From Spirochaetae bacterium HGW-Spirochaetae-3 (GTDB lineage Bacteria; Spirochaetota; Spirochaetia; Treponematales; UBA12059), in NCBI GenBank assembly GCA_002839315.1, contig PGXV01000008.1, positions 229,707 to 293,706 on the forward strand: 64,000 bases of DNA. The letters are read 5' to 3'. The notes under the pieces were generated by a model. It worked only from the letters and a program-made list of their open reading frames with translations. It was not told where the DNA came from and made no database searches. Numbering within the stretch: position 1 is the stretch's first letter; each line of letters starts with the position of its first letter. This document shows positions 57,499-61,052 of the stretch, piece by piece. Position numbers and translations under genes: made by a program.

Positions 57499-57511
57499 CG
57501 TTCGGCGAACG
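57499..57511 (-). terminator. Hairpin C in ilv leader
   Basis: Perfect palindromic stem CGTTCG / CGAACG with a one-base centre, between the leader and ilvN. No U-run follows it. Confidence 0.4.
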
Positions 57512-57526
57512 CGCGACCCTTCGACT

Positions 57527-57581
57527 AACGGCCTCGGTTCGGGCTCTCTCCGCCCGGCCGTTTGCTAGCGAAGGAGCCCGA
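57527..57581 (-). promoter_or_regulatory. Mutually exclusive hairpins of the ilv attenuator region
   Basis: Hairpin A pairs 57574-57581 with 57539-57546 (TCGGGCTC/GAGCCCGA, 8 bp). Hairpin B pairs 57556-57562 with 57527-57533 (AACGGCC/GGCCGTT, 7 bp). B's 5' arm lies in A's loop and B's 3' arm lies beyond A, so the two would compete. A starts one base after the leader-peptide stop. The lack of a U-tract leaves open Rho-dependent or translational control. Confidence 0.55.
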
Positions 57582-57743
57582 CTATCCGAAGATAAGAATA
57601 AGTACGAGTACGATTACGAGGGCGGAGATAATGGGGGAGGCGTCGATGGTGACCATGGCTTCACGGGAAGCGGCTTCGATCATGCCGAGCGGCATGATCG
57701 CGGGATCGAGCGCGATGTCGTCGCGCACCCTCTTCTGGTTCAT
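57582..57743 (-). CDS. ilv operon leader peptide (attenuation), 53 aa
   Basis: A minus-strand ORF from ATG 57743 to TAG 57582, 142 bases before ilvN. It ends with an Ile/Leu/Val run: 12 of residues 38-51 are branched-chain (IISALVIVLVLILI). Some are encoded by ATT and CTT, rather than the ATC/ATA/CTC more usual here. This matches ribosome-mediated attenuation leaders that sense charged Ile-, Leu- and Val-tRNA. A TTGACA (57777-57782) with a weak TAGGGT lies just upstream, so the leader is short or absent. Within the ORF, 57677-57700 forms a perfect 10-bp hairpin. It could also be a tiny membrane peptide, but its position argues against that. Confidence 0.72.
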   Translation of the reverse strand: MNQKRVRDDIALDPAIMPLGMIEAASREAMVTIDASPIISALVIVLVLILIFG

Positions 57744-57824
57744 CGTGTCGTCACCCTAACCAATAGCTAGAGACGGTGTCAAGTTACTATATGTAGAATT
57801 ATTGAAGAATAGTGGTAAATACGC

Positions 57825-59046: not shown

Positions 59047-60033
59047 CTACGAGAAAGAGCTGACCACGCGGTTGCGGCCGGTCTCCTTGGCCTTGAACAG
59101 CGCCCGGTCGGCCGCGGCGAACAACGCGACGGGATCGGTCGCGTCCAAGGGGCTCGTCGCCACCCCGATACTGGCGCTCAGCTTTACGCGATTCGGCGTC
59201 GCTCCCGGACCGGCCCTGAATTCGAGGTACAGCGACTCCGTCTCTACGCGGATGCGCTCGGCGGCGGCGAGGGCCTCGGCGGGTCCGGCATCGGGCATGA
59301 AGAACGCGAACTCGTCGCCGGATAGCCTGGCCGCCACGTCGCCGTCGCGGATGAGCCTCCCGTACGCTGCTCCGGCGGTCGATATGATGGAATCGCCCGC
59401 CAGGGTGCCATAACGCTCGTTGAGCGCGTGGAAGCGATCCAGGTCGAGCATCAGGGCCGAGCACCGCGGCGGCTCGCTCGAACTACGAGCGAATCGGGAA
59501 CGAGAGGCCTCTTCTATGAAACGCCTGTTGAACAGCCCGGAAAGCTCGTCGGTTACCGCGCGCTTGCGGGCGGTCTCTCCCCAGCGCACCAGGTCGTGCA
59601 GGAAACCCGACGCCTCGTCGAGCCAGCCGGCCATCACCCTCGCCATCGAGGACAGCATCCTCGAGCCTATCATCGGGTACTCCCAGACGAGGCGATAGAA
59701 ATCGAGCCCCTCGAGGACGAGCAGCTCCGTATCGTCGAGGGTAACGCAGGTCGCCGATCGCGGCTCGTTCTCTATGATCGACATCTCGCCGAAGAAACGT
59801 CCGGGACTGAATACGTATAGCTCTCGCTCGTTGCCGTCCCGATCGAGGGCCAACGACGACACGCTCCCCGTCCTGACTATGTACATCTCGGTGCCCGGAT
59901 CGCCGCGCCTGAAGATGACGGAGCCCTTGGGATAGCGCCGCGGCTCCAGGAACGCCGATACCGCGTTAAGCTCCAGCCCGCTCATGCCGGCGAACAAGGG
60001 GGTATCGGTAATCGCCTTGACTATCGGGTTCAT
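59047..60033 (-). CDS. cNMP-binding / GGDEF protein (diguanylate cyclase)
   Basis: A 328-aa protein with an N-terminal cyclic-nucleotide-binding (Crp-like) domain (residues 5-130, FGEMSIIENEPRSATCVTL, whose GE and R positions match phosphate-cassette ligands). The C-terminal GGDEF domain has RLSGDEFAFF, i.e. S-G-D-E-F, which fits active cyclases. An RxxD inhibitory site (RDGD) stands 5 residues before it. It should make c-di-GMP under cNMP control. The start overlaps the previous stop (ATGA). Confidence 0.87.
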   Translation of the reverse strand: MNPIVKAITDTPLFAGMSGLELNAVSAFLEPRRYPKGSVIFRRGDPGTEMYIVRTGSVSSLALDRDGNERELYVFSPGRFFGEMSIIENEPRSATCVTLDDTELLVLEGLDFYRLVWEYPMIGSRMLSSMARVMAGWLDEASGFLHDLVRWGETARKRAVTDELSGLFNRRFIEEASRSRFARSSSEPPRCSALMLDLDRFHALNERYGTLAGDSIISTAGAAYGRLIRDGDVAARLSGDEFAFFMPDAGPAEALAAAERIRVETESLYLEFRAGPGATPNRVKLSASIGVATSPLDATDPVALFAAADRALFKAKETGRNRVVSSFS

Positions 60034-61052
60034 CGTCTCGCCTCAGGCGAGGCGGTCGAGTCATCGCGCTCGAGCGTATAGATACGGTCGCCGCCATCCT
60101 TCCACGCACGAGTCATCAGGCCGTAGGCCTGCTCGACGAGGCCGCGGAAATCCTTGCCGTCGGCGGGCCACGAAGCGACGGCGATGCTCGCGCTTAGATG
60201 GAAGCCGGAATCGCCGGTGACGGATCCTAGGTCGATGGCGCGGTACGCGACGGCCAGGCGCCCGGCGAGCGCCGCGGCGTCCTCGCCAGCGCAGGCGCTA
60301 GCGACGATAGCCGTCTCGTTGCTGCGCAGGCGGATTGCCCAGGCACGGCGCAACGCCCGGGCCTCGTCCTTCAGGACGGCGGCGATACGTTCCATCGCGG
60401 CGTCTCCGGCGGAATGAGTCCAGGTATCGCATAGCTCCTTGAACCTATCCGGCTTGCATAGCACGACGGCGGCGGGCGGCTCCAGCGAGCGAGGCAGCTC
60501 GTCGTCGAGGAACGCCCGGGACCAGAGGCCCGTCGCGGAATCCGTATACATCTGCCTGCGCAATTCGCGCACCCACGGCGCGTTGTCCGATATGAGCGCC
60601 TGAGTGGAGCGTACGCGCGACGATATCATGGTCACGGCGCGGAGCAGTATGCGAGCCGATACGTCGGGTCGTTCCTTGACGAGGTCGTCCATCGTCGCTC
60701 CGCGGCCGGGGAACGCGAGGATCTCGGCGTCCTCGGCGCAGACGGCCTCTGCGTCGTACGCCGCCCCTCGGGAAAAATCGAAATCCCCGACCACGTCGCC
60801 CGCCACGAAGCGCGCCATCTCCTCGGAATGCCCGGAGGCGTCCGTCCTCGATACGGCGACGGCGCCCGCGCGTATGATGAAGAACCGCTGTGCGGTATCG
60901 CCCGAGCGGAATAGCACCGAGCCCGCCGCATACGAGCCTAGCTCCGATTTCGCGGCTAGCCAGTACATATCGTCCTGTAATAGCCGTGAGAAGAAATCGG
61001 ATCGGTTGAGGAGCGTCACGATATCCGATAACCCGGCGCGTATCTCTGTCAT
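60030..61052 (-). CDS. cNMP-binding protein with degenerate GGDEF domain
   Basis: A 340-aa protein, paralogous in layout to the next gene: cNMP-binding domain (about 10-130, FRSGDTAQRFFIIRAGAV) and a GGDEF-like fold (about 165-330). The active-site motif is RSNET where GGDEF should be, so it is probably catalytically dead and may bind or regulate its active partner. TATACT stands 9 bases before the ATG, with little room for a ribosome site. It is first of the two-gene operon; the junction is ATGA. Confidence 0.82.
   Translation of the reverse strand: MTEIRAGLSDIVTLLNRSDFFSRLLQDDMYWLAAKSELGSYAAGSVLFRSGDTAQRFFIIRAGAVAVSRTDASGHSEEMARFVAGDVVGDFDFSRGAAYDAEAVCAEDAEILAFPGRGATMDDLVKERPDVSARILLRAVTMISSRVRSTQALISDNAPWVRELRRQMYTDSATGLWSRAFLDDELPRSLEPPAAVVLCKPDRFKELCDTWTHSAGDAAMERIAAVLKDEARALRRAWAIRLRSNETAIVASACAGEDAAALAGRLAVAYRAIDLGSVTGDSGFHLSASIAVASWPADGKDFRGLVEQAYGLMTRAWKDGGDRIYTLERDDSTASPEARR

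Follow-up and report, generated by a model that had tools for sequence, protein, structure and literature searches.

The ilvNCB operon in this stretch of spirochaetal DNA is preceded by a short open reading frame (ORF) rich in branched-chain amino acid codons, which raises the question whether the locus is a ribosome-mediated attenuator and, if so, how expression could be stopped where no U-tract terminator is apparent. We analyzed the locus in the window, i.e., the whole 64,000-nucleotide stretch of DNA, and compared it with related genomes.

A leader ORF with a branched-chain codon run precedes ilvNCB

The leader and the operon genes are arranged as follows.

57743-57582, minus strand: leader peptide ORF of 53 codons, translation MNQKRVRDDIALDPAIMPLGMIEAASREAMVTIDASPIISALVIVLVLILIFG followed by the stop
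57632-57591, minus strand: regulatory codon run IISALVIVLVLILI, the best 14-residue stretch
57451-57447, minus strand: Shine-Dalgarno sequence AAGGA of ilvN, read from the sequence
57440-56901, minus strand: ilvN, acetolactate synthase small subunit (NCBIfam NF008864, 203 bits)
56892-55843, minus strand: ilvC, ketol-acid reductoisomerase (NCBIfam NF004017, 570 bits)
55720-54041, minus strand: ilvB, acetolactate synthase large subunit (NCBIfam TIGR00118, 723 bits)

The ORF that a sequence-only reading had placed just upstream of ilvN is present, 141 nt ahead of the gene, and the NCBIfam assignments confirm the operon behind it. The same reading had the ORF end in 12 branched-chain residues out of 14; this ratio holds for IISALVIVLVLILI, whereas the final 14 residues (SALVIVLVLILIFG) contain 10 Ile, Leu, or Val. 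The 12-of-14 stretch occurs a single time across the six frames of the window and in 0 of 40 simulated 64-kb sequences with the window's dinucleotide makeup. A perfect 10-bp hairpin within the ORF (57677-57700; -17.5 kcal/mol), also singled out before, is real, but it is accompanied by six other such stems in the window (seven in all), and its sequence is absent from the other ilv leaders read. Since it is neither rare nor conserved, we dropped it as a defining part of the attenuator.

Two conserved helices follow the leader ORF

Directly after the leader ORF, the RNA can adopt alternative pairings, formed by the following segments.

57579-57568, minus strand: P1a, GGGCUCCUUCGC, starting 2 nt past the leader stop codon and strongly conserved in accepted elements
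57561-57556, minus strand: P2a, ACGGCC, the 5' half of P2, located in the P1 loop
57553-57541, minus strand: P1b, GCGGAGAGAGCCC, the partner of P1a by covariation and folding
57555-57552 with 57544-57541, minus strand: P3, GGGC:GCCC, the inner stem of the P2 hairpin, which excludes P1
57533-57528, minus strand: P2b, GGCCGU, the partner of P2a

In the window, P1 pairs GGGCUCCUUCGC with GCGGAG-A-GAGCCC (12 bp and a bulged A, with a hairpin energy of -24.0 kcal/mol), and P2 pairs ACGGCC with GGCCGU (6 bp), giving -15.8 kcal/mol for the hairpin of P2 and inner P3. P1 and the P2/P3 hairpin are mutually exclusive, in agreement with the competing hairpins proposed earlier. Both helices are supported by comparison. 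In an alignment of 30 sequences that was built without structure, although its rows were found by models containing P1 or P2 and may be biased towards structure, 91.9% of the P1 and P2 cells pair, compared to at most 46.6% with partners slid, cell counts that related sequences inflate; seven pairs show double changes versus 2.4 in shuffles. P1 alone has 89% of cells paired and four pairs with double changes. For P2 alone, the value is 98.7%, with compensatory changes among AU, GC, and CG at the first pair and between GC and AU inside, as seen in the variants ACGGCC/GGCCGU, GCGGCC/GGCCGC, ACGACC/GGUCGU, GCAGCC/GGCUGC, and CCGGCC/GGCCGG. P3 is degenerate in several relatives, leaving P1 and P2 as the two best-kept helices.

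Mean hairpin energies of P1 and P2 (-20.6 and -18.3 kcal/mol, with P1 the stabler in 19 of 30) are close, as expected of a switch. The whole 331-nt leader folds no better than shuffled sequences (z = -1.0), and the case therefore rests on conservation and covariation rather than on energy. With stems of 12 bp (S1) and 6 bp (S2) and loops of 3 or 6 to 7 nt (L1), 2 nt (L2), and 7 to 14 nt (L3), P1 and P2 could, by geometry, also coexist as an H-type pseudoknot.

No U-tract follows P2 in the window, as had been remarked before, and none of the loci examined has a U-tract terminator at P2. A scan of 29 loci flagged one strong candidate elsewhere, 71 nt past P2b, in a locus (L092/L117; G056:C360) that carries an Ile/Leu/Val leader and the element without a recognized amino acid gene behind it. 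Searches of Rfam with the window and four copies returned no relevant match, even when relaxed to E values up to 5.

The same RNA is found upstream of different amino acid genes

Upstream of ilvN in four relatives, one from the window's genus and three from a second genus of the family, an Ile/Leu/Val leader with a differing N terminus is followed by an almost invariant 60-nt block with the consensus GGGCTCCTTCGCTnG-N4/5-ACGGCCGGGCGGAGAGAGCCCG-N-AGGCCGT. An exact pattern search of the window's own genome (G000) found the ilv copy only; other copies were revealed only by covariance models, namely R1, built from this block, and the improved R2 and R3. We accepted 35 copies (a count that leaves out G038 and G276) in 27 genomes from two families of the window's order in the Spirochaetota. 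Three of them lie in the window's own genome: the ilv copy, one at leuA (G000:C11), where the leader ends in SALLLAVLLLILGI, and one at aro genes (G000:C5) behind the leader MATELQVPTPLHSGHSPAISFYFYYHYNS. The class and the phylum were sampled with 395 and 393 genomes, respectively, many of the genomes searched being fragmented assemblies, and no match turned up outside the window's family. Weak R1 matches (L060, L065, L066, L072, and L074) and two R3 matches (G003:C106 and G041:C79) were not accepted, as they had no leader with a matching run or lay within coding sequence.

The accepted copies are located upstream of ilvN (6), leuA (6), ilvE (2), serS (2), aroF directly downstream (8), and aro genes with an intervening reversed aminotransferase gene (10); one further Ile/Leu/Val copy has no assigned gene. 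A leader peptide directly precedes the element in 34 of the 35 copies, and its residue type fits the gene in all 33 cases with an intact leader and an identified gene. Ile/Leu/Val leaders stand before ilvN (6), leuA (6), and ilvE (2), Ser leaders reading MGRTSLASAARSSSPSSSSSRGSS and MGRVDVAGITKPSSSSSSSRGSS before the two serS genes, and Phe/Tyr leaders at the eight direct aroF copies and at nine of those with the reversed gene. The exception (L089; G011:C312) carries an insertion with inverted repeats that parts the Phe/Tyr (FYFY) run from P1 and, judging from its sequence, is a natural break of the attenuator.

The run also keeps a fixed position. In the 23 leaders tabulated, the last regulatory codon always begins 5 to 16 nt before P1a (14 nt in the window), and the run lies outside P1 and P2 in the copies read. 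Of 34 leader stops, 20 abut P1a or overlap it; the other 14 fall at +19 to +64, inside or beyond P1.

Comparison of the regions upstream of ilvN, which had been suggested as a check, showed the element there always together with an Ile/Leu/Val leader (6 of 6, window included), an outcome that speaks for attenuation. Four relatives with ilvN are devoid of the entire block at this gene (G001, of the same genus, G018, G025, and G041); where the leader is missing, as in G001, so is the whole upstream block and not the codon run alone. Actinobacteria are already known to carry ilvB leaders (PMC1262725, PMC11857589), so that occurrence of such a leader outside the gamma-proteobacteria, which had been considered noteworthy, is in itself unremarkable. 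What is remarkable, and goes beyond the initial view of the locus, is the sharing of one conserved RNA module, not specific to ilv, with leuA, ilvE, aroF, and serS, in each case behind a codon run proper to the gene.

The leader promoter is conserved and points to a leaderless ORF

The following promoter is located directly upstream of the ilv leader ORF.

57790-57753, minus strand: ilv leader promoter ATAGTAACTTGACA, with the -35 box TTGACA (57782-57777), an 18-nt spacer, and the -10 box TAGGGT (57758-57753)

Its -35 box is preceded by ATAGTAAC. Among 24 aligned element promoters, CTTGA is present in all 24, an AGTAA box is mostly kept, and the -10 region is of the extended type TGnTAGnnT. 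The sequence ATAGTAACTTGA, which overlaps the -35 box, has exactly three occurrences in the 3.88-Mb genome, found only at the ilv, leuA, and aro attenuators (window 57779-57790, G000:C11:470885-470896, and G000:C5:81688-81699, respectively). Several copies contain it as half of a dyad; AAGTTACTGTCGATAGTAACTT, ahead of the G002 aro leader, is an example. Either the whole 5' cassette would have spread between operons or a regulator may also bind at ATAGTAACTTGA, making it a possible transcription factor site.

The leader ATG follows the -10 box after 9 nt in the window, 6 nt in most relatives, and 6 to 10 nt in most copies; the serS copies have a different -35 box, with the ATG, by eye, equally near the -10 box. 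Such proximity to an extended -10 box implies a leaderless or nearly leaderless mRNA. The ilv leader ORF is thus probably leaderless, and most leader ORFs across the copies look leaderless as well. The leader peptide of Corynebacterium ilvBNC is a leaderless precedent (PMC11857589), and mycobacterial cysteine leaders are another, according to a title that PMC13236596 cites. As a separate observation, the aro leader starts (AUGGCUACC...GGUACCA) in L059, L062, L071, and L073 may fold into a 5' hairpin that covers the start codon of the leaderless ORF.

Several aro copies are separated from aroF by a reversed gene

In the aro copy of the window's own genome (L112; G000:C5:76000-84500), and also in L129, L123, L114, L076, L091, and L095, an oppositely oriented aminotransferase gene comes after the Phe/Tyr attenuator, and the DAHP synthase gene and further aro genes come next. 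The reversed gene, about 1.2 kb, stands behind the attenuator in 10 aro copies. In the three copies checked, aroF lies beyond it, with a gap of 83 to 112 bp past the start of the reversed gene. A consensus scan, which misses nonconsensus promoters, found no promoter-like site for aroF in the window's own genome. Attenuator, reversed gene, and aro genes possibly constitute a noncontiguous operon that has been kept across two families. We know of no noncontiguous operon with an attenuator in front. The proposed aro arrangement, deduced from sequence, resembles noncontiguous operons in having a reversed gene inside the transcription unit (PMC7154746). Were aroF transcribed from the attenuator promoter, the polymerase would have to traverse an untranslated stretch of about 1.3 kb, a requirement that would favor an antitermination role.

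A different arrangement was observed in L093 (G018), where P1a (GGCUGCUUCGC) has a further potential partner, GCGAGGAGGCAGCC, at the aroF Shine-Dalgarno sequence only 17 nt past P2b; this copy is perhaps a translational variant.

A ribosome-gated switch is the likely mode of control

The DNA itself shows that the codon runs match the genes and keep a fixed place ahead of P1a, that P1 and P2 covary, that P1 and P2/P3 exclude each other, and that the RNA is reused across operons. We consider it likely that these features reflect a ribosome-mediated attenuator in which interchangeable sensor peptides act on one conserved RNA actuator reused across operons. Translation of the leader, stalling, the direction of control, and the end of transcription are inferred, in the following order of events. 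The sensor would be the peptide ORF, probably leaderless, in which the last codons ahead of the switch specify the amino acid that the downstream gene product synthesizes or charges, and the actuator would be the P1/P2 RNA, separable from the sensor. With an ample supply of the amino acid, the ribosome would pass the codons and cover P1a, so that P1 is blocked and transcription is lost prematurely, through either the P2 hairpin or bare RNA. Upon starvation, the ribosome would stall upstream and leave P1a free; P1 would then form, alone or in a pseudoknot with P2, and transcription would proceed into the operon.

Attenuation, as proposed earlier, is the best reading of the matching runs and the conserved, mutually exclusive structures. 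Three observations speak against it: no U-tract terminator was found at P2 in the loci examined, which leaves the mechanism without its classical final step; in the 14 copies with a stop at +19 to +64, a stopped ribosome would not favor the P2 hairpin in the same way; and P3 is degenerate in several copies. As the U-tract terminator is lacking, we do not file the element as a classical ribosome-mediated attenuator. Candidates for the way in which expression stops are Rho, a U-less hairpin, or antitermination.

Rho is encoded (710 bits), and the missing U-tract terminators fit a tentative reading, possible though we would not expect it, in which the pyrimidine-rich codon run is a Rho loading site masked by the stalled ribosome and P1/P2 is mainly a polymerase pause or part of the termination zone. 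The last 19 codons of the ilv leader are C rich and G poor (37% C, 12% G), but this may merely reflect Ile, Leu, Phe, and Ser codons in a GC-rich genome. Mycobacterial cys leaders without terminators have been tentatively assigned to Rho (PMC1262725). By itself, however, Rho-dependent attenuation leaves the conserved P1/P2 sequence and the covariation in both helices unexplained.

The preferential conservation of P1 and P2 over P3, together with loop and stem lengths that fit an H-type geometry, is what a pseudoknot would account for. It seems unlikely to us that this pseudoknot, formed only on ribosome stalling, is a processive antitermination signal to RNA polymerase, as the contact with polymerase is putative. 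RNAs of the put/EAR type bring about processive antitermination, with polymerase reading through distal terminators. The aro copies with the reversed gene, in which no promoter-like site for aroF was seen, would require transcription across long untranslated RNA; the consensus scan may nevertheless have missed a promoter of aroF's own. The full version, in which stalling on an exchangeable run would form the pseudoknot and allow polymerase to read through distal terminators, long untranslated stretches, and the reversed gene before aroF, appears quite unlikely.

Control of translation, with stalling altering access to the start of the first gene, is improbable. In the window, the ilvN Shine-Dalgarno region AAGGAUUCGUU is a possible pairing partner of AACGAGAUCCU, and the start codon lies only 17 nt past P2b in G018 and that of serS 33 nt in G003. 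The AACGAGAUCCU pairing partner is, however, not conserved, and an element-to-gene distance that varies between those 17 nt and 1.37 kb speaks against direct masking of the Shine-Dalgarno sequence as a common mode. A protein- or metabolite-binding RNA with an incidental leader peptide, as argued for the actinobacterial LEU element, which also has a leader ORF and a pseudoknot and whose codon mutations reportedly behave unlike classical attenuation (PMC1262725), would suit the high sequence conservation of loops and stems but is highly improbable, because a single ligand cannot explain Ile/Leu/Val, Phe/Tyr, and Ser runs that switch with the gene and always end just before P1a.

Comparison with known leader-peptide systems

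The ilvL and leuL attenuators of E. coli sense starvation through a leader peptide rich in the amino acids of the operon and through competing hairpins. The spirochaete element resembles them in its matching leader peptide, competing hairpins, and proposed role as starvation sensor. They differ in having a U-tract terminator and an RNA of their own for each operon, whereas in the spirochaetes one RNA, with no U-tract seen, serves ilv, leu, aro, and serS. To our knowledge, the RNA of known leader-peptide attenuators is peculiar to each operon.

The ilvBNC attenuator of Corynebacterium glutamicum (ilvB-II motif) shares the branched-chain leader, the leaderless start, and overlapping antiterminator and terminator hairpins; unlike the spirochaete element, known from sequence, its terminator was tested experimentally, and it occurs before ilvB only and is not used for other amino acids (PMC11857589, PMC10272879). 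The LEU element likewise has a leader ORF with a Leu run, a possible pseudoknot with an alternative hairpin, and no obvious terminator, but it belongs to another phylum and to leuA only, its Leu codons pair with the leuA Shine-Dalgarno sequence, and codon mutations reportedly had no classical effect (PMC1262725). Motifs of the uORFC type, e.g., uORFC-8-2 before cysS, also combine a conserved structured RNA and an upstream ORF with regulatory codons before a synthetase or amino acid gene; each, as described, belongs to one gene and one amino acid (PMC8632094). In Rfam and the open-access literature, we found no described family that reuses one RNA actuator behind different runs, a comparison that does not extend to the 2010 attenuator survey (Lopatovskaya et al., cited in PMC4833913), which possibly mentions Spirochaetes.

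Sensor and actuator are apparently separate here, with the RNA kept and the codon run swapped among Ile/Leu/Val, Phe/Tyr, and Ser, which suggests one interchangeable device for sensing amino acid shortage. If true, these spirochaetes would have a general amino acid starvation switch, in a lineage beyond the groups usually associated with one; engineers would gain a modular part that is ready to use, and attenuation without a U-tract terminator could be studied on it as a test case. The 35 natural variants make the mechanism directly testable.

Elsewhere in the window, at 59047-61052, two adjacent ORFs have, by eye, the look of a GGDEF-type domain linked to a cyclic-nucleotide-binding domain, with a degenerate motif in the second.
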